DNA from: Vulcanimicrobiota bacterium
Lineage (GTDB): Bacteria; Vulcanimicrobiota; Vulcanimicrobiia; Vulcanimicrobiales; Vulcanimicrobiaceae
NCBI GenBank assembly: GCA_027459645.1
Contig: DAIDHQ010000011.1
Span: forward strand, 1-64,000
Direction: 5' to 3'
DNA length: 64,000 nucleotides
This document shows positions 6,868 through 53,522 of the stretch, piece after piece. Numbering within the stretch: position 1 is the stretch's first letter; every line of letters begins with the position of its first letter. The notes under the pieces are model-generated. The model made no database searches. It saw only the letters and a program-made list of their open reading frames with translations, and was not told where the DNA came from. Both the position numbers and the translations under genes were made by a program.

Positions 6868-6889
6868 CCGATCCCAGGAGAACGCAACG

Positions 6890-28203: not shown

Positions 28204-29037
28204 TTGGAACAGTCGCCTACGCACGGCGCAGCCGTGCCATACCGTGTCTTGCTCGTGGATGCCGATCCACAGCACGACCTCACCACGTGGATCGGGGACC
28301 CGAACGCGGCCGTCACGCTCGCCGACGTTCTGCTCGATCCCACATTGGTACGTTCTGCGATCGTCCCATCGCGCGCCGGCGGCGCGCACATTATCAACGG
28401 CTCGCGCGAAGTTGCGGCCGTGCAGAACGAACTAAAGGAGCGCCACAAGTCGCCGTACACGGTGCTCCGCAAGATCATCGAATCCGTCCGAAACGATTAC
28501 GATTTCGTCTTCATTGACACGGCGCGAACGATGGACCTCTTGAGTGTTTCCGCGATCGCCGCGGCCACGGAGATTCTGTCACCGATCGATTGCGACCCAA
28601 TGGCAGTGAAAGGTCTTGGGCTGATCCGTCAATCACTCTCGGAACTCGAAGAAGCCGAGTTACTTCGGACACGCCCCACGATTCGCGTGCTGCTCACGAA
28701 ATATCCGGGTGGAAAAACGCAGCCAGCCGTCGTGCGAGATACCGTCGAATACGTGCGCGAACTCGACGTACCAGTATTCAAAACGGTCATTCGGTTCTCG
28801 GAACAGAGCCGCGGTGCGTTCCCGCAATCAGAAACCGTCTTCACGCTCTTCCCGCGATCGATTACGGCGGAGGACTACCGCACGCTTCGCGGCGAGCTGT
28901 TGAGCACGCTCGGCGAAGGCCCGCACATCGTTGTCGTCTCGATTGAAAAAGGCGGCGTCATGAAAACCTCGACGGTAGCGTCGCTCGGACACGCGCTCTC
29001 GACGCCGGTCGAAGCCGTCACCGGAGGTGCGGCGTGA
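28204..29037 (+). CDS. parA: ParA-type partition ATPase, circularly permuted (277 aa)
   Basis: The protein starts where the second strand of a normal ParA would be: YRVLLVDADPQHDLTTWIG (about 13-31), then the Walker-B-like FVFIDTARTMDLL, the IDCDPMAVKGL region and VFKTVIRFSEQSRGAFP. The missing first strand and deviant Walker A appear at the C-terminus: HIVVVSIEKGGVMKTSTVA (Lys249, Lys254). The order is therefore rotated, with the break exactly between helix 1 and strand 2. An in-frame TAA at 28195 rules out an N-terminal extension. The start is TTG 28204 after GGAGG. The GTGA overlap with the next gene fits a parAB-like pair. Confidence 0.88.
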   Translation: MEQSPTHGAAVPYRVLLVDADPQHDLTTWIGDPNAAVTLADVLLDPTLVRSAIVPSRAGGAHIINGSREVAAVQNELKERHKSPYTVLRKIIESVRNDYDFVFIDTARTMDLLSVSAIAAATEILSPIDCDPMAVKGLGLIRQSLSELEEAELLRTRPTIRVLLTKYPGGKTQPAVVRDTVEYVRELDVPVFKTVIRFSEQSRGAFPQSETVFTLFPRSITAEDYRTLRGELLSTLGEGPHIVVVSIEKGGVMKTSTVASLGHALSTPVEAVTGGAA

Positions 29038-30268: not shown

Positions 30269-30868
30269 ATGACAGACACGACCCAAGGGAAGCTCGACGC
30301 TCTCCTCCGCGCCGTACGCGCGCGAGGCGGCGTTTTCACGGCGAGCGAAGCTGGCCGCTTCGGCCTCTCCCGGAGAACCCTGCGGCAGCTCGCGCGCGAG
30401 GGACAAGGGGTCGTGCATGCCTTCCGGGGAGTCTACCAGGCGATCGACACTCCGTACGACCTGGCGATCGCCGCGGCGTGGCGACGCGCTGGCGACGATG
30501 CCATCGCCTCGCACGAGACGGCGCTGCAGCTCTACGACCTCGGAGACATAGAGCCGCGCCGCTACGAGTTTACGGTTCCGCGCGCGGCACGCGCACGTCG
30601 GCCCGGATCGGCCTTCCGGCTCCACACGACGACCGCCATGCCGCCGTCGCGATCGATCCGCGGCGTGCCGGTCACGACACCGGCTAGAGCGATCGTCGAT
30701 ACGGCGCCCCTTGGCGACCTTACGGAGATCGCCGTCGCGCAGGCGCTCGGACGCGGGCTTGCGACGGAAGAAGAGCTGCGGCGTGAAGCTACCGGACGGC
30801 CGCGCGCCGTGCAAGACGCAATCGATCGCGCGCTGAGCGTGCGTGATCGCTACGCGGCTTACGTGTAG
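30269..30868 (+). CDS. AbiEi-type antitoxin (199 aa)
   Basis: The antitoxin half of a type IV (AbiE) toxin-antitoxin pair. The N-terminal winged helix (GGVFTASEAGRFGLSRRTLR, QLAREGQGVVHAFRGVY) autoregulates in known AbiEi proteins. The C-terminal part (ASHETALQLYDLGD, FTVPRAAR, IRGVPVTTPARAIVDTA) is the antitoxin domain. ATG 30269 begins just after a TATGAATGG segment. TAGTG overlap with the toxin gene. Confidence 0.85.
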   Translation: MTDTTQGKLDALLRAVRARGGVFTASEAGRFGLSRRTLRQLAREGQGVVHAFRGVYQAIDTPYDLAIAAAWRRAGDDAIASHETALQLYDLGDIEPRRYEFTVPRAARARRPGSAFRLHTTTAMPPSRSIRGVPVTTPARAIVDTAPLGDLTEIAVAQALGRGLATEEELRREATGRPRAVQDAIDRALSVRDRYAAYV

Positions 30869-31845
30869 TGGCGCGGCGGTACGTCGATGCGCGCGCATTC
30901 GGTGCGGCGCTTGACGTTCGCTTGCGTGCCATCGCAAACGAACAGATCGTACCTATCGATCGTCTTCGACGCGAAGTCGCATACGAGCGTTTTCTCGCAA
31001 GGCTACAAGCAGAAGCCCCGGGCGAGTGGCTGCTGAAAGGCGGCGTCGCACTCGATCTCCGGTTCCCGATCGGCGCAGCACGCCGGACGAACGACGTTGA
31101 CATAGAGACAACGGCGCACGTGAACGTGGAGCGCGCGCGAGCGCTCTTGCAGCGTGCCGCCGGCGCCGACCTTGGCGACTACTTCACGTTCCATGTCACG
31201 AATGAACCCGCTCGCGAACTGATCCAAGGAACCTTCGCGTATCGGTTCGGTATGGAAGCACGACTCGGCGGTCATGTGTACCATGCGTTCAAATGCGATG
31301 TAGCGATGGGAACAGCGCGCGACAAGATCGAGCGCATCCACGGCCGCTCGCTCTTGGAGTTTGCCGGCATTGAAGCCCCCACGCTCGACGCTGTTTCGAT
31401 ACCCACCCACGTCGCGGAAAAGCTCGCGGCGTATACACAGCTCTACAGTGACGGCGTTCCGAGTTCACGCGCCAAAGATTTAGTCGATCTCGCCCTACTC
31501 GTCGAGCACCGCGAGATCGGGCCCGCCGGCGACCTGCGTGCGGCGATCAAGCGAACGTTCGCCGAACGCGGACGATCCACGCCGGCATTCCTTCCCGATC
31601 CGCCGGCGGAGTGGAAGACCGCTTATCAGCGACTCGCGTCCGGGATAGACGTTCCTGCGAACGTCGCGGACGCGTATGCCTCGGTTCGCGCAATGGTGGA
31701 CCCCATACTCGCCGGCGAAGCCGACGATCAAACGTCGTGGCGAGTCGGCCACGGGTGGAGCGATCGCGACGAACGATCACGCGACACCGAGCCGCAACGC
31801 GCGGCAGCAGAAGAACGGGGCGAAGACTTCGATCTAGGCTTGTAG
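30868..31845 (+). CDS. AbiEii-type nucleotidyltransferase toxin (325 aa)
   Basis: GTG 30868 overlaps the antitoxin stop by one base. WLLKGGVALDLRF and RRTNDVDIE are the GG/S and DxD motifs of DUF1814 nucleotidyltransferases (AbiEii/MenT class). VAEKLAAYTQLYSDG...RAKDLVDLALL is the conserved second half. In studied systems such toxins block growth when the antitoxin or phage state changes. Here the pair probably stabilises the element and may resist phage. It overlaps the convergent Rep gene by 12 bases. Confidence 0.88.
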   Translation: MARRYVDARAFGAALDVRLRAIANEQIVPIDRLRREVAYERFLARLQAEAPGEWLLKGGVALDLRFPIGAARRTNDVDIETTAHVNVERARALLQRAAGADLGDYFTFHVTNEPARELIQGTFAYRFGMEARLGGHVYHAFKCDVAMGTARDKIERIHGRSLLEFAGIEAPTLDAVSIPTHVAEKLAAYTQLYSDGVPSSRAKDLVDLALLVEHREIGPAGDLRAAIKRTFAERGRSTPAFLPDPPAEWKTAYQRLASGIDVPANVADAYASVRAMVDPILAGEADDQTSWRVGHGWSDRDERSRDTEPQRAAAEERGEDFDLGL

Positions 31846-36665: not shown

Positions 36666-36809
36666 ACCCTCAATTCACGTAATACGCGAAATGCGGTCAT
36701 TTCGCTCCACGCGGGCCTTTCGTTCGGTTTGCCGCTTAGGCTCCCTGCGTGAAAGCACCTCTTTACGTGCAGGACTTAGCAATAGCGCGCTTATACATTA
36801 AGCCCACAA
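36666..36809. other. Candidate origin of transfer (oriT) with operator
   Basis: The stretch between the divergent accessory genes and the relaxase holds TTCACGTAATACGCGAAATG (an operator copy) and, close to the relaxase start, TAGCGCGCTTATA (36784-36796). The latter matches 8 of 11 bases of the GTGCGCCCTTA nick-region core I recall for MobQ/IncQ and Ti-type oriT. The layout equals the Ti plasmid traCD-oriT-traA order. The nick site itself is not proven. Confidence 0.5.
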
Positions 36810-39800
36810 ATGGCGGCGTATCGGCTGGCGGCTCAGGTGCTCTCCCGCTCGAAGGGGCAGAGCGCCGTGGCGGCGGCGGCGTACCGCGCCGGCGAACGGC
36901 TCTACGACGATCGGGTCGGCGAGGAATACGACTATACGGGGCGCGGCGGCGTCGAGCACCGGGAGATTCTACTGCCCGAGGGTGCGCCGGAGGCTTTCGC
37001 GGCTCGCGGCGTTCTGTGGAACGCCGTCGAGGCCGCGGAGCGGCGCAAGGACGCCCAGGTGGCGCGCGAGTTGCAGCTAAATGTTCCATTCGAGTTGAAT
37101 AAAGGCGAACGCGTGACGCTGGTGCGGGCGTTTCTCGCGCGTCGCGTAAGCGAAGGGATGATAGCGGACTATGCGATCCACCAACCGTCTCGAAGCGGCG
37201 ATCCGCGCAACAATCACTGTCACGTGTTACTCACGTTGCGCTCGTTGTCGAGCGACGGTTTCGGGCCGAAGGTTCGCGAGTGGAATCAGGTTGCGACGTT
37301 ACAGCGGTGGCGCGAGGAATGGGCTCTCGACTGCAATCACGCGCTGGAGATCGCGGGGCTTTCGACGCGGGTCACGCACCTTTCGTACGCCGCCCGCGGG
37401 ATCGATCGGGAGCCAGCTATCAAGGTGGGTCCGGTGGCGACGGAGCTTGAGCGCCGGGGTATTGCGACTTACGCGGGCGAGCAGCTCCGAGCGATATGGG
37501 AGCGTAACGCGGTGCGTGAGCTTCGGCGTGCCTGGGACGTGGCGCGCTCAAAGTTTGGCGTTGCAGCGCTCGTGCTCCCAGGTGAACTGCCACACGATCC
37601 CGGGATGGTACTCGCGGATGGCGCGCGTGCGCGGCGCTTCGCGTGCGATCGTCTGCTGCAGTCGAGTTACGGGGTCACGGGGGCGGAGATGGGCTTAAGC
37701 GAGGGATGGAAGGTGGCGAAGCGGTTACTCGGGGGCGTCGAGTTTAAGTCGGGCGATCGGCGCGTTACCGATCGCGGTGACAAGGTGTTCGGGAAGACGG
37801 GCGACGCGCAAGAGATCGCCGCGATGCTGGCGATCGCGGAGGCGCGCGGGTTCCGCAAGCTCTCGTTCGATGGTAGCGACGAGTTCAAGCTCCAGGCGTA
37901 CACGGCGGCGATCGAACGCGGGTTTCGTATCGAGGCGTCGGGCCGGGACCGGCGGGTGTTGGAGCGCGCGGAGCGCGCTGCTCGGCGCACGCTTTCGGAG
38001 CGTAACCGCCCCGAAAGAATCGGCCCTGACGGGCCGAGCGCTGACGCGCAGGGTGCGCCGGCGGCGGAGCAGGCTTCGCCCGCTCCGCGCGAACCCGCGC
38101 TCGTGGTCGAGCGCGTGCTCGCGGAAATGACCCACGGCGAGGCGCGGTTTACGCAGCGCGATCTCGATCGCGCGCTATCGCGCTACGCGACGGATCATAC
38201 GGAGGTCAACCTGGAGGAGCTGCTGCAAGCAGCTCGCGTTCACCCGTCGATCGTGCAAGTCGGCAGCCGGTACGGAACCGTCTTTTACACGACGGAGAAC
38301 GTGCGCGAGCAGGAACGCGAAATGTTCGATGCGATCGGGGCGCTGGCGCAGGACAACGCGTATCCAACGGATCGCGCGTACATGGAGCACGTCGCCAAGG
38401 AAATGACGATCGGCGGCGGGCAGCTCGACGCGCTACGACGGATCACGGGGCCCGAGCGGGCGTCCGCGGTGATCGGCTTTGCCGGAACCGGCAAGTCGTA
38501 CATGATGAAAGCAGCGCGCCTCGTGTGGGAGCGTGCTGGCTACGAGGTCGTGGGAGTTGCGCTCGCCGGCGTCGCTGCCCAAGGGTTGGAAGAAGGCTCC
38601 GGTATTCCGTCCTCAACGATCGCATCGTTTTTGCTGCGCCACGAAGCGGAGCCGGGACGCGAACCGCGCGAACCGCTCGGCGAGAATACGGTCATCGCGA
38701 TCGATGAAGCAGGGATGGTCGGGTCGGATGATTACCGCCGTTTGGTTCGCATTGCCGAACAGTACGGGGCGAAGATCGTGTCGATCGGCGATTACGAGCA
38801 GCTTCAAGCGATCGAGCGCGGCGCGGCATTCCGCGGGATCGTGGAGCGGATCGGGTCTGCTGAGATCACCGAGATTCAGCGGCAGAAGAAGGGTGCAGCG
38901 TGGATGTGCGAGGCGACTCGTGAAATGTCCACGGGACGTACGAAGGAAGCGCTGAAACGGTACGACGAGGCGAGTTTGACGCACGAGCACGTGACGCTCG
39001 ATGATGCGAAGAAGGCGCTCGTCGAGAAGTGGGTCGCCGATCACAAGGCGTTCCCGATGGAACGCAACGAGAAAGGCGATCTTGTCGGTACGCAGATTAT
39101 TCTTGCGTTCACGAACAAGGACGTGCAATCGCTGAACGAGGTTGTGCGCGCGGAGCGGAAAGCTGCCGGCGAACTTGGCGAGGACGTAGACGTGACACTC
39201 GCGATTCCCCGGGGCGAGAAGAGTGTAGCCCATAAGACGAAGCTCGCGGTTGGGGACCGCGTGTACTTCCTCGCGAATAAAAAGGACCTCAACGGCGTCG
39301 CCGTTATGAACGGGTCGCTAGGCACGATCGAAGCGGTCGAGGGAGGCAAGGACCCGCAGCTCACCGTCGCTTTGGATAATCGGAAGACGGTCACGTTCAA
39401 GCTGTCGGAGTACGCGAGTCTGACGCACGGGTATGCGGCAACGGTGAACAAGGCGCAAGGCGTCACGGTCGATCGCGCGTACGCGCTCGCCACGTCGCAT
39501 TGGAATCGTCACCTGACGCTTGTAGCTATGTCGCGCCACCGCTACGAAGCGAATATGTATTGGTCGAACGATGTGTTCCGCAATGTGGCGCAGCGCGATC
39601 GTGTGCTTGGACGCAAGGGCTTGAAAGAGAATGCGCTCGATAGCGAGATTGAGCGTGGGAGCGAGCACGCCCCGACGTACATTCGTACGCCGCGGCAGGT
39701 GCAGCGGGACTTTGACGACGTGCTCACGACGGCGAAGCACCTTGCGGCGGTTGCGCCGGATCAAGAGCGCGAGGCGGCCGTCGCCGCGCTAGCCGAAGTG

Positions 39801-41975
39801 CAGGCGTGGCACGGCGATATGTCGCGCGCGTTGGAACGGTTACGGGCAGGGGATGTGCCGACTATCGAGATCGATCGGCACGATCACACGAAGCTGGTCG
39901 AGCACGTCGAAGCGCTGCAGGCGGGTGTGGAACGTGAGGTCGATCGGACGATCGAGCGCGAACGTGCTGCGTTGGAACGAGTCGTGGAGGAAGGGCGAGC
40001 CGAAGAGATCGCGACCCCTGCGGCGGAGATTGAGCCGGCGGAAGACCGCGCTGCGGACGTTCCCGAAGCCGGGATGACGGAAGCGCCGCGGCGCGACGTG
40101 AATCTGCGAACGTTGCAACCGATCGACGCGGAGCGTGTGATTGCTCGCGCGTCTGAGCTGCTGTTGAGCGATAGCTACTTGCAGCGGACGGCCGCGATCG
40201 CGGCGCTCACGGGGCGCCGTCCGGTCGAGATACTGAAGTCGGGCGAGTTTCAGGTCGGGCTAGACGAGCATACGCTCGTGTTTTCCGGGCAGGCGAAGAC
40301 GCGCGACGAGGAAGGGCGCGGTAAAGACGCCTACGAGATTCCAACGCTCGCGGAACGCGATCGCATCGTCGATGCTGTGGCACAGTTGCGGGCGGAGTTG
40401 TCGGTTCCGACGAAGCGCGCGGAGCGTCCGATAGCCGAGCTGGAGGCCTCGGAACTCAACGATCGCATTGGCAAGCCGTTGCGCCAAATCACGCAGCGCG
40501 AGTTTGGTATGACGCCGCAAGAGTTGCGCGCGGCGTACGCGACGATCGCGCGTGCGCGCTTTGCGCCGGAACGCGGCGCGTTCGGATATTTTGCAGAAGT
40601 GCTCGGTCATAATTGGCTCGACGAGAAAACGGGGCTGTCGTATGCGAAGTGCAGCATTCGCGGCGAAGAGCGCTCTTCGGTGCGCGCGCTTGAACGAGGG
40701 CGAGCCGAAGTGCTCGATGCGCTGCGACAGCAGCTCCTCGAACATGATGCTACCCACGATGTGCATGATCCGATGCGCGGATATTTACAGGAACGTATTG
40801 CGCGCATGGAAGCGGCGCGGTTCGTAGCGCCGGCCGCGCAAGTGGAGATCGCGCTTCAGCCTGTGAGCGAGGCGGCGGTGCTGGTGCGTGCGGAGCGTCT
40901 TTTGCGCAGCGATCGGTACGCGGACGTTGCCGCGGGGCTCGTTGTCCTCACGGGCAGGCCAATCACAGAGATACTGCGCGACGCGAGGTTCGAGGTCGAT
41001 CCCTCGGATCGCAGTAGGATGCTGGTCCGAACGAGCCGGTCGGGTCCGGCGTCATCGGTCTACGCGCTCGCTCCGCCGCAGCGTCTTATCGACGCGCTCG
41101 CGAAGATTCGCGAGCAGCGTGACTTCGGCGGACTGAGCGATCGCGAACTGATCGCGCGTGTGCGCGAACAGATGCAGGGGGCGATCACGCGAGGGTATGG
41201 TGCGTCGATGACGACGCGCGACCTTCGGTCGGTCTACGCGTCGATCGCGTACGATCGCGAGCGCCCTGCTCACGGGTTTGTGCAGTACGCATCCCGGACG
41301 CTCGGCGTCGAAGCGGATCGCGTACCGGAGAGCTACATGCGCTACTACACCGGCTCTCAGGATCGCGCGGTAGAACGTGCGCGTCAGTCCGCCGCCGAAG
41401 CGCGTGCGGAGTTGGAGCGGCTGGCGCAACGTGAGCGCGACCCCGCGCTTCGTGAGCGGCTGTTGCAGCGCGCCGATCGGCTCGCTGAGCCGACGCTGCG
41501 CGTGGATGCTGCGCCGGCGCTTGAGCTGGACGCGCAAGAGCTGCGCGATGTTGTGCGGCGCGAACGCATGGAGGTTGAGCGTGAGCTTGCCGTCGAGCAG
41601 CAGCCGGAGAACAATGCCGAGACGCAAGCGCGTCGTCGGTTGCAGCAGCAGGCGTCGCAGCAAGACGAGATCGAGGTCGAGGACGCGGTTGCGCACGAGG
41701 TGCGTGCGGAGCACGCGCACGATCGCGACGCCGACCAGGTGCGGCGTATGACAGGTGGGCAGCGCCGTGCGGAGCTGCTTGGGCGCCGGGAAGAGCTGCT
41801 GGAACTCGAATCGGAACTTGAAGCCGCAGTGGAGCGTGCCCCAGCGGGCCGCGTAACTGCGCAAATTGGTCACGATAGCATGATTGATCTTGACGCAGTG
41901 CGCGGGGCGGTGCGTGGTATCGACGTGGAACTCGCGGCACCGGAGATTGCTTCTGGCGCCGAGTTGAGCCTGTAG
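36810..41975 (+). CDS. traA: TraA relaxase-helicase fused to two telomere-resolvase-like domains (1721 aa)
   Basis: Residues 1-230: MobA/MobL relaxase, with QSAVAAAAYRAGERLYD and the metal site RNNHCHVLLTL (His136, His138). About 530-920: RecD-like helicase, Walker A GFAGTGKS near 556, AIDEAGMV near 631 and ATVNKAQGVTVDRAYAL plus VAMSRHR at its end. About 1105-1330: a resolvase-like domain with LTGRRPVEIL (Arg1136), VFSGQAKTRD (Lys1163), ELRAAYATIARARF (Arg1240), EVLGHNW (His1267) and GLSYAKC (Tyr1278). About 1360-1550: a degenerate second copy (TGRPITEIL, DLRSVYASIAYD; His replaced by Val1500; no QAK motif). The C-terminus is a long charged coil. Known TraA proteins (about 1100 aa) lack these domains. 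Likely acts on both oriT and telomeres. Confidence 0.9.
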   Translation: MAAYRLAAQVLSRSKGQSAVAAAAYRAGERLYDDRVGEEYDYTGRGGVEHREILLPEGAPEAFAARGVLWNAVEAAERRKDAQVARELQLNVPFELNKGERVTLVRAFLARRVSEGMIADYAIHQPSRSGDPRNNHCHVLLTLRSLSSDGFGPKVREWNQVATLQRWREEWALDCNHALEIAGLSTRVTHLSYAARGIDREPAIKVGPVATELERRGIATYAGEQLRAIWERNAVRELRRAWDVARSKFGVAALVLPGELPHDPGMVLADGARARRFACDRLLQSSYGVTGAEMGLSEGWKVAKRLLGGVEFKSGDRRVTDRGDKVFGKTGDAQEIAAMLAIAEARGFRKLSFDGSDEFKLQAYTAAIERGFRIEASGRDRRVLERAERAARRTLSERNRPERIGPDGPSADAQGAPAAEQASPAPREPALVVERVLAEMTHGEARFTQRDLDRALSRYATDHTEVNLEELLQAARVHPSIVQVGSRYGTVFYTTENVREQEREMFDAIGALAQDNAYPTDRAYMEHVAKEMTIGGGQLDALRRITGPERASAVIGFAGTGKSYMMKAARLVWERAGYEVVGVALAGVAAQGLEEGSGIPSSTIASFLLRHEAEPGREPREPLGENTVIAIDEAGMVGSDDYRRLVRIAEQYGAKIVSIGDYEQLQAIERGAAFRGIVERIGSAEITEIQRQKKGAAWMCEATREMSTGRTKEALKRYDEASLTHEHVTLDDAKKALVEKWVADHKAFPMERNEKGDLVGTQIILAFTNKDVQSLNEVVRAERKAAGELGEDVDVTLAIPRGEKSVAHKTKLAVGDRVYFLANKKDLNGVAVMNGSLGTIEAVEGGKDPQLTVALDNRKTVTFKLSEYASLTHGYAATVNKAQGVTVDRAYALATSHWNRHLTLVAMSRHRYEANMYWSNDVFRNVAQRDRVLGRKGLKENALDSEIERGSEHAPTYIRTPRQVQRDFDDVLTTAKHLAAVAPDQEREAAVAALAEVQAWHGDMSRALERLRAGDVPTIEIDRHDHTKLVEHVEALQAGVEREVDRTIERERAALERVVEEGRAEEIATPAAEIEPAEDRAADVPEAGMTEAPRRDVNLRTLQPIDAERVIARASELLLSDSYLQRTAAIAALTGRRPVEILKSGEFQVGLDEHTLVFSGQAKTRDEEGRGKDAYEIPTLAERDRIVDAVAQLRAELSVPTKRAERPIAELEASELNDRIGKPLRQITQREFGMTPQELRAAYATIARARFAPERGAFGYFAEVLGHNWLDEKTGLSYAKCSIRGEERSSVRALERGRAEVLDALRQQLLEHDATHDVHDPMRGYLQERIARMEAARFVAPAAQVEIALQPVSEAAVLVRAERLLRSDRYADVAAGLVVLTGRPITEILRDARFEVDPSDRSRMLVRTSRSGPASSVYALAPPQRLIDALAKIREQRDFGGLSDRELIARVREQMQGAITRGYGASMTTRDLRSVYASIAYDRERPAHGFVQYASRTLGVEADRVPESYMRYYTGSQDRAVERARQSAAEARAELERLAQRERDPALRERLLQRADRLAEPTLRVDAAPALELDAQELRDVVRRERMEVERELAVEQQPENNAETQARRRLQQQASQQDEIEVEDAVAHEVRAEHAHDRDADQVRRMTGGQRRAELLGRREELLELESELEAAVERAPAGRVTAQIGHDSMIDLDAVRGAVRGIDVELAAPEIASGAELSL

Positions 41976-41988
41976 GGAGGTGCGGTAA

Positions 41989-42204
41989 ATGGCGCTCGTG
42001 GAGCAAAAGAGATCTGAGGCGACGGATTCGCTCAGTGACGTGCTTGGGACGGTGACGGAAAAGGAGGTCGCCGGCGGCGAGATCGCGGACGCCGGCGTGA
42101 TCGAGGACGTGCGCGAGGACGAGTTGCGCAGGTTCGGCGTCACGGTCGAAGGGTTTGCTCTCGATGAGGTAACGGGGAATGATTCGACGGGTGACGCGGA
42201 GTGA
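41989..42204 (+). CDS. Small acidic protein between relaxase and ArdC-like genes (71 aa)
   Basis: ATG 41989 follows GGGAGG. Rich in Glu/Asp (KEVAGGEIADAGVIEDVRED), it ends in ALDEVTGNDSTGDAE. It overlaps the next GTG by four bases. No family recognised; the acidic nature suggests a small chaperone or DNA mimic, which is speculation. Confidence 0.6.
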   Translation: MALVEQKRSEATDSLSDVLGTVTEKEVAGGEIADAGVIEDVREDELRRFGVTVEGFALDEVTGNDSTGDAE

Positions 42205-44408
42205 GCGAAAAGTTCTTTCTGCGTACGACCGAGCGGCGCACAGGGATCGAGGACGCGCGACGGTTCGCGAGCGACCTGATTGAGTTTGCGCCGGATGGCG
42301 AAGCGCACGAGCGCGTAGCGCGCGCGCTGACGTACGTGCCGCCGGGTTTGTTGGGACTATTGAAGCGCGACGGGACGAAGATCAATATCGTCACGCTCGA
42401 TCGACAAGTGCGTGACGTATCGCCGATTTACCCGTTTCTCGATCCGAAGACGCGCGATCATATCGATCGCGGCGTCGGTTTGCATATCGGTGTGGAGAAG
42501 CGCGTGTATCTCCGTGCGGAGGCTCTGGAACACCCCGCGGGGCTCGTTCACGAACTCGCGCACGCGATCGACGCCGCCGTGCTGCGCGATCGCGCCCGCC
42601 GCGAGCCCGATCGCTATCCCGATACGCGTACGCTGAGTGACGTTGGCGGTGAGATACTGAATCTGCCCGCGCATTCGGTCGGCTACCTATCGCATATGGG
42701 GGCGGAGCTGCCCGGGTACGACGGCGACGGCGACGCGCTCGAAAGCGCGTGGCGTAATTCGCAGTTCGTATCCAAGTACGCGGCAGAGAACCGCGAAGAA
42801 ATGTTCGCGGAAGCGTTCCGCGGCTATTGCGGAACGGGCACCCCGGATAAAGGCCGCGATTTCCTTGGGCCCGGAACGACGAAGAACCTCGAACGAGTGG
42901 GTCCGTCGCTCGTCGGCGTGATCGAAGGGCTTGTCGGCGAGTATGAAGCCGAACGGCAGCGCGGGATCGAGGTCGCTGGCGCAACGCACGGCGTGCGCGC
43001 GAGTGACGAACCGAAGGAAGAGCGCGGCAAGCGCGACTTTCGGCAGGAGATCACCGAGAAAATCATCGCGCAGCTTGAAGCGGGGAAGATTCCGTGGGAG
43101 AAGCCGTGGGAGTTTACACTTCCGTTCAACGCGACGCGAGGTAATCAATATCACGGGATTAACCAGCTTATCCTAATGCTCACCGCGCAGGAGCGCGGCT
43201 GGAGCGATCCGCGGTGGATGACCTTCAAACAGGCGACCGACAAAGAATGGTCGGTTCGTAAAGGCGAGCGTTCGACGATGGTCGAGTATTGGAAGCCTCC
43301 CGAGAAGTTGACGGAGGCGGAGTTGCGCAAGCGCTTCGACGAGGCGAAGGCGCACGATCCGACACTCGACTTCGCCGCGTTCGCGAAAGAGCAGGCGCGC
43401 GCGAACCGCTGGCAAGTATTCTATGCGCGGGTATTCAACGCCGCGCAAATCGACGTGCCGACGCGTGACGCGAACGGCGAGGTAGTAAAAGAGCGCGTCG
43501 CGATCGACGGAAAGGAAGTCGAACGAGCCGTCGTGAGGCCGCTCACGCAGGCTGTGCCGTGGGCGAAGAGCGCCGTAGAGATTGAGCCGGTCGAGCGAAT
43601 CGAGAAGCTGCTGGGCGCAACGGGCGCACACTTCGAGTACGGCGGCGGCCAGGCATACTACTCGCCGTCGCGCGACGTGATCGTGATTCCGCCGAAGACG
43701 ACGTTCAAATCGCTTGAGGGCTACGAATCGACGCGCTTGCACGAGCTTGGTCATTGGACGGGCCATCCGTCACGGCTCGATCGTTCGGAGTTGCAGTCGC
43801 ATCCGTTCGGGTCGCCCGGATATGCGAAGGAAGAGTTGCGCGCGGAGCTTGCAAGTGTGTTTCTGTCGGCAGAAACGGGAATACCGTACGACGTAACGCA
43901 GCATGCCGCCTACGTGCAGTCGTGGGTGAAAGCGCTGCGCGAAGATAAGAACGAAATCTTCCGAGCAGCCAAAGACGCGGAGAAGATTACCGACTACGTG
44001 CTCGCGTTCGAGGGCGAACGTGCGCGAGATCGCGCGAGCGATCGTAGCGAAGGGCGTGGTGCGGATGACCGTGGTTCCGGCATGGCGGTGGCGGGCGTCG
44101 ATCTGCAAGCGCTGCCGCTGGCGGAAGTAAACGGCTCGGTACGCGCCGCGGAGGCGGTGGCGTATGATTTCACGGCTCGCGTGAGCGGCCGTGACGAGAG
44201 CGCCGAGCACGTGATCGCGGTGATCGGGGGGAAGGCGGTAGCGGTAGAGCGCGCCTCTTTCCGCTCGGTGCCTCGTGTCGGTGAGGTGGTGGAGGTACGG
44301 CGCGACGGTGACACGACGCGCGCGTTCACGGAGCGCGAAGCGGAGCTGGCGGCTCAGGAGGAGCCGTCGCTTGAGGCCGGGCGCGACGCGGAGTTCGAGG
44401 TCGCATAG
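42201..44408 (+). CDS. ardC: ArdC-like antirestriction protein with two zincin domains (735 aa)
   Basis: Residues 1-250: a first metallopeptidase-like domain with LVHELAHAID (His117, Glu118, His121), ending in NREEMFAEAFRGY, like lethal-factor-type zincins. Residues 270-620: a full ArdC: the N-terminal ssDNA-binding part (KIIAQLEAGKIPWEKPW, YHGINQLILM, WMTFKQATD) and the zincin LHELGHWTGHPSRLDR (His514, Glu515, His518). Residues 650-735: a KfrB-like small barrel (YDFTARVSGRDESAEHVIAV) shared with the 46923 protein. ArdC proteins protect incoming DNA from restriction, and one plasmid ArdC is known to travel with the transferred strand. Extra N-terminal zincin is unusual. Confidence 0.85.
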   Translation: MSEKFFLRTTERRTGIEDARRFASDLIEFAPDGEAHERVARALTYVPPGLLGLLKRDGTKINIVTLDRQVRDVSPIYPFLDPKTRDHIDRGVGLHIGVEKRVYLRAEALEHPAGLVHELAHAIDAAVLRDRARREPDRYPDTRTLSDVGGEILNLPAHSVGYLSHMGAELPGYDGDGDALESAWRNSQFVSKYAAENREEMFAEAFRGYCGTGTPDKGRDFLGPGTTKNLERVGPSLVGVIEGLVGEYEAERQRGIEVAGATHGVRASDEPKEERGKRDFRQEITEKIIAQLEAGKIPWEKPWEFTLPFNATRGNQYHGINQLILMLTAQERGWSDPRWMTFKQATDKEWSVRKGERSTMVEYWKPPEKLTEAELRKRFDEAKAHDPTLDFAAFAKEQARANRWQVFYARVFNAAQIDVPTRDANGEVVKERVAIDGKEVERAVVRPLTQAVPWAKSAVEIEPVERIEKLLGATGAHFEYGGGQAYYSPSRDVIVIPPKTTFKSLEGYESTRLHELGHWTGHPSRLDRSELQSHPFGSPGYAKEELRAELASVFLSAETGIPYDVTQHAAYVQSWVKALREDKNEIFRAAKDAEKITDYVLAFEGERARDRASDRSEGRGADDRGSGMAVAGVDLQALPLAEVNGSVRAAEAVAYDFTARVSGRDESAEHVIAVIGGKAVAVERASFRSVPRVGEVVEVRRDGDTTRAFTEREAELAAQEEPSLEAGRDAEFEVA

Positions 44409-44410
44409 AC

Positions 44411-46789
44411 GTGCCTACGATCGATCATATCCTGCGTGAGCAACAGGGAAAGTATCGCAGCCAGCAGCCGGAGGGGATGTGGCCTGCGCTTTTCGGCATT
44501 CTACTCGGCGTCGTTCTTTCGTTGGCGTCGGTCGTCGTAACGCAGAATATGGTGGCGAGCGAGCTGCGGTTTGATCCGCAACTTGGGTCGCCGACCATCG
44601 GCCGAGTGTATCTGTCGCCGTTGACGACGCTCGCATGGCGGATTCGATGCTTCCGCTCGCGCGATCGATCATTCATCCATCCGATACCGGCGTGCGAAAG
44701 TGAACCGGCGCGGTCGGAAGTCATGCGCCGCTTCGGGGAGTACGATCGTGTGATCCTGATCGTGTCGATCGTGTCGTTGACGGGGAGCATTCTGCTCGGC
44801 GTCGTGATTCGCGAGCGTCGTCGTGCGAATGTATCGGTGCAGACGCACGGCGACGCGGCGTGGGCGGAGTTTGAAGATATTGCGACGCGCGGCTTGATTC
44901 TCTCGCGGCGGAAGCAAATCGCAAACGACAAAGGGAAGATCGGATTCCCGCTCGGCGTGCTGCGGCACGAAGGAAAGACGTATTACGTCTTTACGAATCC
45001 CGAGCAGGCTCTCGGTGTCATGTTGATCGGGCCACCCGGAACCGGAAAGACGGCCTGCTTTTACATGCCGCATTTGCTGACCGACCCCACCTCGAAGTTC
45101 ATCTACGATCCTTCGCTCGAAATGTGGCGCAAGTCGGCGGGCTGGCGCAGCCGGCCGCGAAGCCAGGGCGGCGCTGGAAATATCTGCCTGCTCTTCGCGC
45201 CGACGCGGCCCGAGCTGTCAGTGTGTATCAATCCGGCCGACAGCGTGAAGTGGGAGACGCCGAACGAGACGCGGACGCTCCAGAATCTGTGGAAGCGACT
45301 GTTGGACTTCGCCGACAAGGCCTCTGAGGGAAGCGAAGCGCATTGGATCGCGACAGGTACGGTGCTCGGCGAATGCGCGCTCGCGCATTTGCACTACACC
45401 GATCCGGCGAACTGTAATTTTGAGGGTGTCTATAACTACCTCGCACAATTCGAGGACAGCAAGGACGGAAAGATTACGGGCGTCGATCTCGCGCTTCGCG
45501 AGATCATGAACTCGGATCATCGGCAGGGCCGCGAAGACCTTGACCATATCTTCCGGGATCACGAAGGCAATCAGTGGGACGTGCATCCGTACGTCGAGCG
45601 CAGCGCGAAAGAGACGTTGCAAAAGGCGCCAAATGAAAAATCAGGCGTGATCTCGACGATGCGGCGATTCTTGCACGTTTTCCGCGAGCGGAACGTTGCC
45701 GAAGTAACGCGCCGCTCGGATTTCTCGCTCGAAGACCTCATGCTGAACGACAAGCCGGTATCGCTGTACTTTGGCGTGCCACCGAGCGACGTGCAGCGCC
45801 TGCGGCCACTCGTGGGACTGCTCGTGAATCTGATTACGTTTACGCACATGGATGACGAAGCGCTCGACTTGGAAACGGGTGAGTTTCGGTACAAACACCC
45901 GCTCGATCTTGATCTCGACGAAGCGAAGCAGCTAGGGAAGCAAGAGCAAGCGTTCACGTCGTGGAGCATGGCGCGGAAATACGGAATCGCGCCGAATCTC
46001 GGCTATCAGGATATTTCGCAAGTGTGGTCGGCCGCCGGCGGCCAAAACGAAGAAGCCGTCACGTCCGTATCCAACGTGAAAGTCTTTTTGCGACCGAACA
46101 AGCCGGAGACGGCAAAGTGGATAAGCCACGAGCTGCTCGGGAAGACGACGGGCGAAGATTTCAACCGGAACTACTCAGGGAATCGGTTAGGGTATCTCGG
46201 ACACGCGCAGACGCAACGTTCGTACGTGTCTACAGACCTTATGTCGCCGCAGCGCCTTATGAACATGGAGCCGCACGTCGCGATCGTCAAAGCAGGTGAT
46301 CTCGCACCGTTTTTAGTCGAAACGTTGTACTACGAATCAGATCCTCAAATGCTCGAACGATCGCGGATTCCGCCGCCGAAGCGGTCGGCGGTGATCCCGA
46401 TGGCGCGTCGCGCGTATCGGCCGCCTTGGTGGAAGGCGGACGGCGAGGAGGCGGTCGCCGAGGCGAGTGCGATCGTCGCCGATGCGCAAGGCGCGGCGCC
46501 GGCACTGCCGCCGACGACACCTACAGACGCGGGCTTGCAGCAGGAGCGCAATGCGGTCAAGGAGCTGGCAGGGGTAGGTGTGGCGCCCGCGGCGGTCGTG
46601 GCTCAAGCCGTAGCGAGTGAGATTGAAGTGCCGGCCGGCGCGCCGGTCATGGTTTCGACGGACGCCGTAGCCGATCGGGCGATCACGAGCGAGTCGTCTC
46701 AGGCGATCGAGGACGCTTTGGCGGGCATGTTCTTCGAGCCCGACACGGGTCCCGAGATTGGCGCAGCCGGCGACCCAATGAACGGCTAG
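44411..46789 (+). CDS. virD4: Type IV coupling protein VirD4/TraG (792 aa)
   Basis: It brings the relaxase-DNA complex to the channel. Two N-terminal transmembrane helices (ALFGILLGVVLSLASVVV; VILIVSIVSLTGSILLGVVI), then TNPEQALGVMLIGPPGTGKT (Walker A about 207-214), FIYDPSLEMW, and a Walker B region LDLDLDEAKQLG (about 498-508). SNVKVFLRPNKPETAKWIS and IVKAGDLAPFLVE follow the family. The C-terminal 110 residues are disordered and acidic. GTG start three bases after ardC. A terminator follows. Confidence 0.9.
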   Translation: MPTIDHILREQQGKYRSQQPEGMWPALFGILLGVVLSLASVVVTQNMVASELRFDPQLGSPTIGRVYLSPLTTLAWRIRCFRSRDRSFIHPIPACESEPARSEVMRRFGEYDRVILIVSIVSLTGSILLGVVIRERRRANVSVQTHGDAAWAEFEDIATRGLILSRRKQIANDKGKIGFPLGVLRHEGKTYYVFTNPEQALGVMLIGPPGTGKTACFYMPHLLTDPTSKFIYDPSLEMWRKSAGWRSRPRSQGGAGNICLLFAPTRPELSVCINPADSVKWETPNETRTLQNLWKRLLDFADKASEGSEAHWIATGTVLGECALAHLHYTDPANCNFEGVYNYLAQFEDSKDGKITGVDLALREIMNSDHRQGREDLDHIFRDHEGNQWDVHPYVERSAKETLQKAPNEKSGVISTMRRFLHVFRERNVAEVTRRSDFSLEDLMLNDKPVSLYFGVPPSDVQRLRPLVGLLVNLITFTHMDDEALDLETGEFRYKHPLDLDLDEAKQLGKQEQAFTSWSMARKYGIAPNLGYQDISQVWSAAGGQNEEAVTSVSNVKVFLRPNKPETAKWISHELLGKTTGEDFNRNYSGNRLGYLGHAQTQRSYVSTDLMSPQRLMNMEPHVAIVKAGDLAPFLVETLYYESDPQMLERSRIPPPKRSAVIPMARRAYRPPWWKADGEEAVAEASAIVADAQGAAPALPPTTPTDAGLQQERNAVKELAGVGVAPAAVVAQAVASEIEVPAGAPVMVSTDAVADRAITSESSQAIEDALAGMFFEPDTGPEIGAAGDPMNG

Positions 46790-48220: not shown

Positions 48221-49282
48221 GTGACTGCGACTGCCGAGCGTCCGCGGGCGCGTTCAGCTTTCGCCGAAAAGCGCGAGCGGCAGCGCACAGCGCTGGAGCG
48301 GACGATCGGCGGTGAGCTGCACGCGTGGTTCGATCGCGACGAGGTACGCGAGATCGACTTGAATGACGACGGCAGGGTCTTCGCCGAAGTCGCCGGCGAA
48401 GGGACGGTCGATACCGGGCTGCGCTACAGTGCCGAAGAGGCGGAATCGCTCGTCATGACGATCGCCTCGGAGATCGCGATCATCGACCCGTTAGCGAAGT
48501 TGACCGAGGATGAACAGTCGCTTGACGGCAAGCTCGACTTTCGACGCGGAACGTTTGCGCGCGTTACACTGACGGCGCCGCCGGGGGTCGAGCAGCACAC
48601 AATGGAGCTGCGTAAACACTCGTCCATCGCGCTCGCGCTGGAGGCGCATCTGGAGCCGCGAGGCCCGATGAACCTTCCGCTGCTCACGAGGAATCAATAC
48701 GACGGCGTGGTCACGCTGCTTGGTGAGAATGCAAACATTGCGGTTTGTGGGGAAATGTTTGCCGGGAAGACGACGCTTCTAAACTCGCTGTTCGCGAAGA
48801 TCGCAGAGCTTGATCCTGAGCGACGCTACGCGTGTATCGAGCACGTGCGCGAGATCGTGAATCCGTTAAAGAACAAGAAAATGGTGCAGGCAACGAATGC
48901 CTGGCCGATACCGCGGTGGTTGCCGAAAATCGTGCGCTGGAACGTACGAAGCGCGACGATCGGCGAGCTGCGCGACGCCGAGGCGGTGAATCTTTTACTG
49001 AACGATATTTGGCTACAGATGACGGGTGGTTTAACGACGTTCCACGGCAAAAAGGCGAGGCGTATCCTCGCACGCATGGAAGCAATGCTGAAGACGATTG
49101 GCTTGACGCCGCAGCGCGAAGTCATCTGCTCGTCGCTGAATGGAATCGTGACAATGGAGCACTCGCACAAGGCTGGGCGGATCGTCACCGGCGTGTACCG
49201 TGTGGAGCCGGAACTTGACGCGAAGGGCGATTACGTCTTGACGGCTCTCGGCGAGGTACGAGAGCTGCCCGACGCGGCGTAA
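48221..49282 (+). CDS. virB11: VirB11/TrbB-type secretion ATPase (353 aa)
   Basis: A hexameric ATPase of the secretion channel. It has an N-terminal domain, then NIAVCGEMFAGKTTLLNSL (Walker A GEMFAGKT, about 177-184, with Met-Phe-Ala where GTGS is usual), the Asp box region YACIEHVREIV, and ATIGELRDAEAVNLL...GGLTTFHGKKA with the His box. Length is normal. GTG start three bases after the tandem-OB gene. A terminator follows, so it is separated from virB2 transcriptionally. Confidence 0.88.
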   Translation: MTATAERPRARSAFAEKRERQRTALERTIGGELHAWFDRDEVREIDLNDDGRVFAEVAGEGTVDTGLRYSAEEAESLVMTIASEIAIIDPLAKLTEDEQSLDGKLDFRRGTFARVTLTAPPGVEQHTMELRKHSSIALALEAHLEPRGPMNLPLLTRNQYDGVVTLLGENANIAVCGEMFAGKTTLLNSLFAKIAELDPERRYACIEHVREIVNPLKNKKMVQATNAWPIPRWLPKIVRWNVRSATIGELRDAEAVNLLLNDIWLQMTGGLTTFHGKKARRILARMEAMLKTIGLTPQREVICSSLNGIVTMEHSHKAGRIVTGVYRVEPELDAKGDYVLTALGEVRELPDAA

Positions 49283-49306
49283 AGACAATCCGGGCAGGGG
49301 AAAACG

Positions 49307-49345
49307 GCAACAAGGGCGGCTAGAAGGGCCGCCTTTGTTGCTTTT
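49307..49345 (+). terminator. Rho-independent terminator after virB11
   Basis: A 14-base stem (49307-49320 with 49328-49341, one G-T pair), seven-base loop, then TTTT. It overlaps the start of the 44-bp element upstream of virB2. Confidence 0.8.
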
Positions 49346-49384
49346 ATGCTTGAAGGTATTTATACCACTTGACCGGAATATACC
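49341..49384 (+). promoter_or_regulatory. 44-bp conserved upstream element, copy 2 (pilus operon)
   Basis: CTTTTATGC, then TATTTATACCA with an inverted repeat GGTAT/ATACC, then TTGACCGGAATATACC. It is nearly identical to 25174-25218. No standard -10 stands out at the right distance, so it may be an activator- or repressor-controlled promoter. It precedes virB2 by about 77 bases. No gene lies in 49283-49460. Confidence 0.65.
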
Positions 49385-49460
49385 GCTCCGTAAGGCGGGA
49401 TAGGCCCGGCGTTTCTGAGCCCCCTGCCCTTCCGCGCAATTTGGAATTGGAGGATTACTC

Positions 49461-49799
49461 GTGCAACAGATTCTTGCAACGGCCTACGGTGCGCTCAGAG
49501 CAAATCGCCGTCGCATTTTCGACTACAGTCTGCTCGGAATGTTTGTCGCGCTTGCGCTGCCGCACCAGGCTTTGGCCGATTGGGGTAGTCTCGTCACTCA
49601 AGTGCAGAGCTTCAAGACCGCGATCGTGACGATCTCCGCATCGTTGATCGTCATCGGCCTTGTCGCCGCCGGCGTCGGTTGGATGACGCGTTCGCACGAA
49701 GGGCTCGGTCCCGTCTTTTGGGGCGGCGTAACGATGGTCGTGATTGGCGCGATCATCCTTATGGGCGACGCGTTCGTTTCGACACTGCAAGGCAGTTAG
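49461..49799 (+). CDS. virB2: VirB2/TrbC-type pilin (112 aa)
   Basis: GTG 49461 with TTGGAGG upstream. A long signal segment ends in LALPHQALA-DWG. Two transmembrane helices (AIVTISASLIVIGLVAAGVGWM and FWGGVTMVVIGAIILMGDAFV) flank the short loop TRSHEGLGPV, as in VirB2/TrbC. First gene of the secretion operon. Confidence 0.88.
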   Translation: MQQILATAYGALRANRRRIFDYSLLGMFVALALPHQALADWGSLVTQVQSFKTAIVTISASLIVIGLVAAGVGWMTRSHEGLGPVFWGGVTMVVIGAIILMGDAFVSTLQGS

Positions 49800-49812
49800 G
49801 GCTAACGCGGTC

Positions 49813-50148
49813 GTGAGCGTCCAGCAGCGCGAGCATCCGATCAATCGCGGCCTCTTCCAGAGATCGAAGATCGCTGGCATTGAGGCCGACGCGTTCGTGT
49901 TGTTGGTGCTTTTTACGATCGCATTTTTCGTGCCGGTGCTTTTGAACCCGCGGAAGATGTGGTGGTACGCCGTAGTCGGCGCCGCATTTTTCGCGGTGTC
50001 GTACTTTCTGCTGCGCTGGCTCTATAAAATCGATCCGCGGTTCTTCGTGAAGATTAGACACTTCTTCCGTTGGAACGCGTTTTATCGCGCTCGACCGTCG
50101 CTTATTGCGGAGCGGGCGCGCATCGTTAAGAGTAGTCAGAAGGGGTAG
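49813..50148 (+). CDS. virB3: VirB3/TrbD-like protein (111 aa)
   Basis: GTG 49813. It has the VirB3 layout: a short cytosolic N-terminus (REHPINRGLFQRSKIAGIEA), two transmembrane helices (AFVLLVLFTIAFFVPVLL, WWYAVVGAAFFAVSYFLLR) and a basic tail. It lies between virB2 and virB4, the conserved order. The tail is longer than in most VirB3 proteins. Confidence 0.82.
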   Translation: MSVQQREHPINRGLFQRSKIAGIEADAFVLLVLFTIAFFVPVLLNPRKMWWYAVVGAAFFAVSYFLLRWLYKIDPRFFVKIRHFFRWNAFYRARPSLIAERARIVKSSQKG

Positions 50149-50153
50149 CGCAG

Positions 50154-52796
50154 GTGGGCGTTTGGGCGTTTCTCGCGGTGATCGTCATCGTCGCGATCTG
50201 CATCGTGGGCGACGAAGAGATTTACACGTTGCGTTGGCTTCGCACGCGTGGGAAACTCGGTGTGGATAAGGCCGTTGGCTACGACTATCGAGCGAAAGAT
50301 GGGATCATAGCGTGGGTCGATAACCGTCTCCTCGTCGGGTGGGAAGTAAGCGGACCCGACTTCGACGGATCGACGTACGCTCAACAAGCAGCGCATGTCG
50401 CGGCCCATAACGAGGCTGTAAAGAAGCGCGACGAAGCGTGGGTGCTCGATTACTACGACTTCTCTGAGGGTGTGACCGGGTATCCCGCGGGGAATAAGGC
50501 GAGCGATCCAACGACGGCAACGATGGCGTGGGCGCGTATAAAGCGATACCTGCAACCGTTCCGGCAGTTCGCGCACGAGCAGTTCGTCGTTGCGACGTAC
50601 ACCCCACCGAGCGCAGTAATCGAGGCGCTTAATCGCCTCATGCTGGACGAGAGTGCCCAAGCGGTAGAGCTTGCGGACGAACAGCACCAGCGCGCGCTTG
50701 CGCAGTTCGAGCAGTATGTGGCTGAGTTGGAAGACGCGCTTTCGACCGTCTTCCGAATGAAGCGACTTGGCAAGCGGCGCATCACGATTGAGGGGCAGCG
50801 ACGCACGGTGGACGATCTTGTGTCGCTGCTGTTCCGTATCGAGACGGGTCGTAATCTGCAGCTTATCTGCGAAGGCGACGGCGACGTACGCCGCATTCTC
50901 ACCTCGTTCGACTTTTCCGGCGGCTTGTATCCGAAGGTGGACGGCGAGCACGTTGTTGTCGTAAGCGTCGAGGATACGCCGGATGCATCGGTACCGGGGA
51001 TGCTCGATGCGCTTGTGTCGGTCAAAGTGCCGTATTGCCGAGCGACGAAAATGGTGTTTTTGGAACAAGAGCATGCGCGCAAGATTGCGCGTGGTTCGTT
51101 CTACCGTCATTCGGAGTCGTCGCAGAACATCGCCACTCGCGTGGCGTCAAACGGCGCCGATGGTGGCGTCGTCGATCCTGGCGCGTTGGAGAACGCGGCA
51201 GATGCGCAGAAGGCTCTCGGCGATATTACGCGCGGGCAAGTGAAGTACGTGCTGTGGAGCACGCGTGTCGTGCTGCGTGATAAAAATCTGTTCCGCGCGT
51301 TGCAGAATGCGTGGAAGATCAAGAGCGAGATCGGGAAGCGTGGCTTCACGGCACGAGTCGAATTGTTCAATAACTCCGAGGCGTACGTGGCCCATCTTGC
51401 TGGGGATAATGCGCATGATGTGTCGCCGCTCGCGCTCGATACGATCGCGGCATCGGACCTCACGCGTATCGCGAGTAACGATCTCGGCCAGCATGAGAAT
51501 CCGAATCCGATGCTGCCGCCAGGATCGCCGCCGCTCTATCGCATGCTCACGTTTGGTGGACAGCCTTACGATCTTGTGCTCGCACAGGAGGACATTCAGC
51601 ACACGTTCTTTGCGGGCCCGACGGGCGCGGGTAAATCGACCGTGCTGAACGTGCTGAGCGCCGCAATGCGGGCTCAGTATGGGCGGACACAGCTATTCAC
51701 GTTCGACCAAGGCCGTTCGGCGGAGCGTTACTGCCTGGCCGCCGGCGGGGACTTCTACGAGCTTGATCCTACGAATAAGGAACCCGGCGCGATCGGCTTT
51801 GCGCCGTTGCAGCGCATCAACGAACCCGAGGAGTTCGAGTGGGCGCTTGAGTGGCTGCAAGAGTTCCTTCTGAAGCTGCAGCGCGTCGAGTTGACGCCGG
51901 AGCAGCAGCAGGCTCTTCGCAACGGCCTTATGGTGGTCGCGCGCGATCCTGATCCGTCGCAACGGACACTTTCGCGGCTACAGTATCAGATGGTCGCGCT
52001 TGATCGCACGATCGCGACGGCGTTAGAGCATTACACAATCTCGGGTGCCCTTGGACGGCTGCTCGATTCGAGCACCGACAGCCTCGGAAGCGCTAGCGTC
52101 CAGGTATTTGAAATGGGCGTCCTCATGAAGCGCAAGGATGCGCGCGTTATTGTGCCGGTGTTGGAGTATATCTTCCATCGAATCGACGAGCGTCTTGGTG
52201 CAATCGATCCAGACACGGGCTTCGCAATCCCGAGCGTGATTCTGCTCGATGAGTCGCCGGAATATCTGCGGCATGAGGCATTTGGCGCGAGAATCAATTA
52301 TTGGCTCGATAAAGTCCGCAAGAAGAATTGCGGCATCTGGCTCGCGACGCTTCGTCTCGGCGACTTCATGAAGTTGCCGATCGCGGATGCGATCCTGGAC
52401 TCGTGCGTCAATAAGGTCTTTTTGCCGAATCCCGAGGCGGACGACGCAATGCAGAAGCTCTATTTCGACGCTGGGTGCAGCGTAGAGGACACGTTGCGCA
52501 TTGCCTCGGGGACGAAGAAACGTCACGTGTTCGTGAAGCAAGGCGATAGGTTTGCCTTTTGCAACACCGACTTCGATCCCGTCGAGCTGGAGTTCGCTGG
52601 TCGCTCGCAACCCGACGACGTGAAGCAAACAGCGCGCCTTTGGCGACAACACGGCCGCATGATGGGCGGCTATATATTACGGGAGGCCGGCCTACATGAA
52701 GCGGCTGACAAGTGGTTCGAGTTTGCTCGCAAAGCTGGGTGGGATCATGAAACGCAGCCTAAAGCAGCGACGGAAAAGGAGCTAATCAGTGCTTAA
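50154..52796 (+). CDS. virB4: VirB4/TrbE-type secretion ATPase (880 aa)
   Basis: The large assembly ATPase. N-terminal membrane helix (FLAVIVIVAICIVGD), CagE/TrbE-VirB domain in the middle (HPHEN-like Asn-rich region near SNDLGQHENPNPMLPPGSPP), Walker A FFAGPTGAGKSTVL (about 486-497), Walker B IPSVILLDESPEYL (about 690-703) and KNCGIWLATLRLGDF (motif following B). Start GTG 50154. Overlaps virB8 by eight bases. Confidence 0.93.
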   Translation: MGVWAFLAVIVIVAICIVGDEEIYTLRWLRTRGKLGVDKAVGYDYRAKDGIIAWVDNRLLVGWEVSGPDFDGSTYAQQAAHVAAHNEAVKKRDEAWVLDYYDFSEGVTGYPAGNKASDPTTATMAWARIKRYLQPFRQFAHEQFVVATYTPPSAVIEALNRLMLDESAQAVELADEQHQRALAQFEQYVAELEDALSTVFRMKRLGKRRITIEGQRRTVDDLVSLLFRIETGRNLQLICEGDGDVRRILTSFDFSGGLYPKVDGEHVVVVSVEDTPDASVPGMLDALVSVKVPYCRATKMVFLEQEHARKIARGSFYRHSESSQNIATRVASNGADGGVVDPGALENAADAQKALGDITRGQVKYVLWSTRVVLRDKNLFRALQNAWKIKSEIGKRGFTARVELFNNSEAYVAHLAGDNAHDVSPLALDTIAASDLTRIASNDLGQHENPNPMLPPGSPPLYRMLTFGGQPYDLVLAQEDIQHTFFAGPTGAGKSTVLNVLSAAMRAQYGRTQLFTFDQGRSAERYCLAAGGDFYELDPTNKEPGAIGFAPLQRINEPEEFEWALEWLQEFLLKLQRVELTPEQQQALRNGLMVVARDPDPSQRTLSRLQYQMVALDRTIATALEHYTISGALGRLLDSSTDSLGSASVQVFEMGVLMKRKDARVIVPVLEYIFHRIDERLGAIDPDTGFAIPSVILLDESPEYLRHEAFGARINYWLDKVRKKNCGIWLATLRLGDFMKLPIADAILDSCVNKVFLPNPEADDAMQKLYFDAGCSVEDTLRIASGTKKRHVFVKQGDRFAFCNTDFDPVELEFAGRSQPDDVKQTARLWRQHGRMMGGYILREAGLHEAADKWFEFARKAGWDHETQPKAATEKELISA

Positions 52797-53517: not shown

Positions 53518-53522
53518 GTGCG

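Follow-up and report, generated by a model that had tools for sequence, protein, structure and literature searches.

The relaxase-helicase-resolvase fusion protein

The window, i.e. the whole stretch of DNA that was analysed, covers the first 64,000 nucleotides of a 68,410 bp contig from a draft genome in 47 contigs. At positions 36810-41975 of the forward (+) strand it contains a single open reading frame encoding a 1721-residue protein in which a Ti-type MobA/TraA relaxase-helicase precedes two catalytic domains of the telomere-resolvase family. The MobA/MobL (MobQ) relaxase domain occupies residues 17-216 (36858-37457, +; Pfam PF03389, E=3e-62; NCBIfam MobQ, 246 bits) and is followed by an LPD7 domain (residues 310-387) and a TraA-type SF1 helicase region (residues about 433-946; 38106-39647, +; TIGR02768, PF13604) with a Pfam AAA_30 helicase match at residues 536-727. 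Besides its MobA/MobL domain the protein scores 659 bits against TraA_Ti (TIGR02768, cut-off 590), which places it among the Ti-type TraA relaxases, and it also scores 65.5 bits against the NCBIfam model of TelA. Two stretches of the protein match the Pfam family ResT-TelK_cat (PF16684), with E=2.3e-43 for the protein as a whole. Codon-position GC is uniform over the entire reading frame and thus gives no hint of a frameshift or a non-coding tail. The reading frame, its length, the resolvase motifs and the tyrosine Tyr1278 are all as described in the first-pass annotation, which had recognised here a TraA-type relaxase with resolvase motifs.

Resolvase domain 1 (residues about 1100-1340; 40107-40829, +) scores 110.5 bits against PF16684 when taken alone (curated cut-off 27), and its sequence matches the PDB chains of TelA (E about 9e-14) and also those of TelK and ResT. 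It is 36-40% identical (E about 4e-30) to the stand-alone resolvase encoded by the same contig (16820-17878), which bears out the resemblance to a gene near 16817 that had been claimed earlier. The catalytic residues of TelA are R255, K286, Y363, R366, H394 and Y405 (PMC3558466), and in the alignment their counterparts in domain 1 are R1137, K1163, Q1237, R1240, H1267 and Y1278. The position of Y363 is taken by Gln in domain 1 and by Ser and Lys in intact stand-alone resolvases. The Arg/Lys/Arg/His/Tyr set that marks a catalytic telomere resolvase is present in domain 1 and incomplete in domain 2, and since all five residues (R1137, K1163, R1240, H1267 and Y1278) are retained, domain 1 is catalytically competent on paper.

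Domain 1 opens at the catalytic domain and has no counterpart of the N-core and alpha-helical linker of TelA-type resolvases. In TelA the linker holds Tyr201 and Arg205, which are involved in refolding of the hairpin, and the annealing activity maps to an N-terminal domain, which is likewise missing from the fusion. The possibility that the stretch before domain 1 conceals an N-core was discarded, since the fusion up to residue 1051 aligns with the ordinary relaxase tail of a related relaxase that carries no resolvase domains (contig C76, see below), and the approximately 50 residues that are left after this point do not provide space for an N-core.

Resolvase domain 2 (residues about 1343-1562; 40836-41496, +) is degenerate and scores 48.2 bits when aligned alone to PF16684 (cut-off 27). 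In the alignment the position of Arg255 of TelA corresponds to Pro1384 (TGRRP to TGRPI), the QAKT motif with the catalytic Lys is gone and the His is replaced by Val, with R1473 and Y1509 retained. Because Arg, Lys and His are lost, domain 2 is catalytically dead. A degenerate second copy lacking the His and the QAK motif had been reported before, and the catalytic Arg can now be added to its losses.

The AlphaFold2 model of residues 1091-1560, built from a shallow alignment of four rows, has a mean pLDDT of 81 with values mostly above 85 across domain 1, and a Foldseek search with this tandem region returned TelA six times, followed by ResT and TelK, all with a probability of 1.00. The pTM of the tandem model is 0.55 and the mutual placement of the two domains is therefore not to be interpreted. 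Domain 2 modelled alone reached a pLDDT of 86, and its best PDB hits were again TelA, ResT and TelK, with TelA in first place; as its input alignment contains resolvase catalytic domains, this model is supportive rather than independent, whereas the HMM score of domain 2 is evidence independent of the model. Both analyses that had been suggested for the tandem region agree, the Pfam search by matching ResT-TelK_cat in both domains and the structure prediction by giving the region a predicted fold whose best PDB matches are TelA, ResT and TelK.

A predicted hairpin-ended linear plasmid

The contig starts with a perfect 40 bp palindrome (1-40), predicted to be a replicated or hairpin telomere, which is the sole perfect palindrome with arms of at least 10 nucleotides on the 68.4 kb contig and whose half-site has no other occurrence in the genome when up to two mismatches are allowed. 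A left terminal inverted repeat (55-337) is matched by the right contig end, which lies outside the window. The two copies agree at 74% over a 294-column alignment scoring 185 bits, compared with a maximum of 31 bits among 194 internal pairs used as a control. The right copy sets in at the final base of the contig, which faces position 55 on the left, so that exactly the first 54 bp are absent there; such a gap would arise if the outermost 54 bp, with the palindrome among them, are the same at the two ends and entered the assembly a single time. Within the terminal repeats (41-340 and the right contig end) the motifs CTGCAGTA and GCTTGCAGTA recur and are possible near-telomere binding sites.

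The stand-alone gene (16820-17878, +) encodes a TelA-like telomere resolvase with an N-core and all catalytic residues (PF16684, 96 bits; TelA PDB chain, E=2e-29). The palindromic tip, the terminal inverted repeats and this resolvase gene are the features by which a hairpin linear replicon is recognised, and together they support the view that the contig is a hairpin-ended linear plasmid, its closed ends being predicted. The element also encodes a topoisomerase, SSB, ParA and DnaA. The DnaA gene (6731-8293) is complete with N-terminal, ATPase and HTH domains, which is unusual for a plasmid, and an AbiEii-type nucleotidyltransferase toxin gene (30868-31845) lies approximately 2 kb from the ParA-type gene (28204-29037).

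Transfer genes and a candidate oriT

A candidate oriT/nic core, GCGCGCTTATAC (36785-36796, +), lies just upstream of the fusion gene. It follows the pattern GCGCNNTTATAC, which occurs once per contig in this and in the related element described below, each time adjoining the start of the relaxase gene, where 0.1 and 0.03 occurrences are expected; the pattern was picked after the two elements had been compared. No inverted repeats were found in the oriT gap. The candidate oriT is located approximately 53% along the replicon, i.e. near its middle, and such an internal position would imply that transfer must pass a hairpin.

Downstream of the fusion gene lie genes for a polyvalent protein with ArdC-N and metallopeptidase domains (42201-44408, +; PF08401, PF18818) that has no resolvase domain, and for a T4SS coupling protein of the TraG/VirD4 type (44411-46789, +; PF02534, E=8e-51). 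These are followed by mating-pair genes (48221-54965, +) identified with Pfam, which encode a VirB11-like protein (48221), a VirB4-like ATPase (50154, a weak match), VirB8 (52789) and VirB10/TrbI (53436). The fusion is a multidomain protein in a T4SS neighbourhood and may be a polyvalent protein that is translocated with the DNA.

A related element with the module on an ArdC-type protein

PF16684 was found in two of 149 genomes of the phylum, and both encode one stand-alone copy and at least one copy fused to a transfer protein, together on one conjugative contig. The second genome belongs to the same order and a different family, and its element is a conjugative contig of 62,330 bp (C76; SCRA01000081.1, FW021_bin.48). 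The stand-alone resolvases of the two elements are 46% identical. The relaxase of C76 shares 35% identity with that of the window and ends without resolvase domains; it is the adjoining gene which encodes a 1285-residue protein with ArdC-N, metallopeptidase, resolvase and SSB domains. This protein is 31.5% identical over 622 residues to the ArdC-N protein of the window. Its resolvase part has an N-core and the catalytic Arg, Lys, Arg and His, and a Lys replaces the catalytic Tyr. The two related transfer operons therefore have the module on different proteins, the relaxase in one and an ArdC-type protein in the other.

A tree addressing whether domain 1 stems from the resolvase of its own element or shares its origin with the C76 fusion left the long branches unplaced. 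No palindrome with arms of at least 10 nucleotides was found at the C76 contig ends. On the minus strand of C76 (36604-36945) a partial, divergent relaxase N-terminus (53% identity) is located just upstream of the intact relaxase gene.

Searches for other fusions

The first-pass annotation had remarked that a tyrosine recombinase fold fused to a relaxase was unfamiliar, and the searches are in line with this. No precedent for a relaxase fused to a telomere resolvase, protelomerase or recombinase was found in the literature searched, and no relaxase-resolvase fusion was found in PLSDB, a phage collection, IMG/VR or 386 cyanobacterial genomes. PLSDB holds at least 5000 records with related relaxases, and the records matching the resolvase sequences number 15 for domain 1, 26 for the stand-alone resolvase and 12 for the C76 module. 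The features beneath these matches are labelled protelomerase, telomere resolvase or hypothetical protein, with one match lacking an annotated gene, and the inspected matches with an annotated gene are all stand-alone genes. Matches in the phage collection (13 records) are all protelomerases or hypothetical proteins, and the single relative in IMG/VR stands alone. As only one relaxase fusion is known, selection on domain 1 is not measurable.

Among the cyanobacterial genomes PF16684 occurs in 15 of the 386. Two large reading frames inspected there (802 and 902 residues) have coiled-coil-like tails and no relaxase recognisable by eye. The 902-residue resolvase (genome G177, C1:2111405-2114975) has two catalytic domains, the second of which is a weak match, and is present in two inverted copies approximately 1.3 kb apart; it represents a separate tandem duplication with no recognised relaxase. 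A further observation concerns the Agrobacterium deltaense plasmid pEL101-131 (NZ_CP143887.1), which is labelled circular and appears to be a hairpin linear plasmid in the form of an inverted dimer, with the protelomerase and its neighbours recurring in mirror order around about 103 kb.

Possible function of the resolvase module

How plasmids with covalently closed hairpin ends are conjugated is an open problem. A hairpin-ended duplex is topologically one closed strand. A strand nicked at the internal oriT and displaced would have to run round a hairpin, and the recipient which it enters would at first have neither resolvase nor end protection. It is proposed that the relaxase of this conjugative hairpin linear plasmid carries the resolvase module, a competent catalytic domain with a dead partner domain, as cargo that recognises the palindromic ends in the course of transfer, a reading which we hold with moderate confidence. 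The chances appear evenly balanced for the proposition that conjugation is here adapted to hairpin DNA, with the relaxase delivering telomere-processing or telomere-capping domains and sister elements using an ArdC-type protein for the same end.

Relaxases travel covalently attached to the transferred strand, and transfer of the full-length protein in conjugation has been reported for ArdC of plasmid pSa and TraC1 of RP4 (PMC5512222). Judging from these families, the relaxase and the ArdC-type protein would both cross into the recipient with the strand, and it is this property of their classes which the two module-bearing proteins have in common. The pattern in the two elements suggests that the recipient cell is supplied with a telomere-handling module along with the plasmid DNA, and the earlier idea that the module travels with the strand is strengthened by its presence on the ArdC-type protein of C76. 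Once in the recipient, the module would hold, protect or re-form the hairpin ends before the resolvase gene of the plasmid can be expressed.

Several activities could serve this purpose. TelN shields hairpins from Mre11-Rad50 independently of catalysis, its Tyr being dispensable for this (PMC12624138), and annealing of single-stranded DNA is an activity of both TelA and ResT (PMC7861564). SbcD was not detected over the cut-off in either host, which makes protection specifically from Mre11-Rad50 (SbcD) uncertain in these hosts. Since the C76 copy has lost its Tyr and domain 1 its N-core, the two elements more probably share a function in recognising or protecting the ends, or in recruitment there, than one in full resolution. 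A non-catalytic role in capping, recruitment or annealing fits both elements and catalysis only one, as domain 2 is dead and the C76 copy lacks the Tyr. Catalysis may nevertheless be open to the element of the window, in which the active site of domain 1 is intact and might cleave and rejoin a single strand at the palindrome; given the proposed cargo role, this seems about equally probable either way. Counting against the proposal as a whole, self-annealing of a strand that has run round both hairpins could rebuild the element with no resolvase needed.

In a stricter and compatible version of the same proposal, domain 1 would cleave the replicated or folded palindrome via Tyr1278 in the recipient and reseal the hairpin, while domain 2 would complete the dimer structurally; a single polypeptide would then perform both oriT and telomere chemistry. 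The five retained catalytic residues are consistent with this, and the tandem arrangement could imitate the dimer of TelA, in which there are extensive contacts between the catalytic domains (PMC3558466). However, this version is rather doubtful, as the N-core and the linker with its refolding residues are missing and the active site of the partner domain is dead. The fused copy of C76 has no Tyr, which argues against catalysis as the common function. Because domain 1 has neither N-core nor refolding linker, a role in capping, recruitment or annealing after entry into the recipient is at least as good a fit as resolution by the relaxase on its own. Of the interpretation offered in the first-pass annotation, the fusion, the identity of the resolvase and the linear hairpin context have thus stood, while the rebuilding of telomeres by the relaxase itself is plausible, as far as can be judged from sequence.

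Alternatively, the tail may act in the donor, where it would dock the relaxase onto telomere-bound stand-alone resolvase or coordinate transfer replication with telomere resolution and have no role in the recipient. The catalytic domains of resolvases form dimers (PMC3558466), docking is a task that would suit a dead domain 2 and a stand-alone resolvase is encoded by the same element; but the oriT appears to be internal rather than telomeric, and in C76 the module is carried by a protein of the ArdC type, known to act in the recipient on the strand that has been transferred (PMC5512222). A role confined to the donor is therefore unlikely. It is quite improbable that a duplicated resolvase segment has joined a polyvalent transfer protein by domain shuffling and contributes generic DNA binding or mere length with no telomere function. 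Polyvalent proteins do collect varied domains (PMC5512222), and degeneration is seen in domain 2 as well as in the C76 copy, yet neutral drift would erode the catalytic residues that are all kept in domain 1, and the module occurs on two different co-transferred proteins from contigs which both encode a stand-alone resolvase. An artefact of assembly or annotation joining a relaxase gene to a resolvase gene, as might be suspected from a draft of 47 contigs in which the exact fusion is found once, is highly improbable in view of the continuous frame with its uniform codon-position GC, the further resolvase gene elsewhere on the contig and the analogous fusion in the independent assembly of C76.

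If the proposed delivery of a telomere-handling module is correct, a relaxase or ArdC-type protein with resolvase domains would provide a concrete and testable answer to the problem of hairpin-plasmid conjugation, and telomere handling would join the functions that mobile elements inject with their DNA.

Comparison with known systems

Domain 1 has the same catalytic domain, fold and five catalytic residues as the telomere resolvases TelA (Agrobacterium), ResT (Borrelia) and the phage proteins TelK and TelN, and the element of the fusion shares the palindromic-telomere context with them. Unlike these resolvases, which are separate proteins with an N-core, the fusion carries a bare catalytic domain and a dead copy inside a relaxase. 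The polyvalent ArdC-N/MPTase class consists of multidomain proteins that enter together with the DNA (Iyer et al. 2017, PMC5512222), and the C76 fusion with its ArdC-N, MPTase and SSB domains conforms to it; in contrast to what is seen in the two elements described here, domains of telomere resolvases, recombinases or integrases are not referred to in the survey's main text.

The hairpin linear plasmids of the Rhizobiaceae resemble the element in combining telomere resolvase, topoisomerase and T4SS genes, but no relaxase was identified on the six that have been described and no fusion was reported, whereas the relaxase here is itself the fusion; for one further plasmid, putatively linear, a relaxase gene of its own is recorded (PMC13293297). 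With the Ti-type TraA and MobQ relaxases the fusion shares the MobA/MobL nickase, the SF1 helicase and LPD7, and its locus has the same divergent small gene and candidate oriT upstream. It differs from them in approximately 620 additional residues which contain the resolvase domains, and in its location on a linear hairpin replicon, the closed ends of which are predicted.
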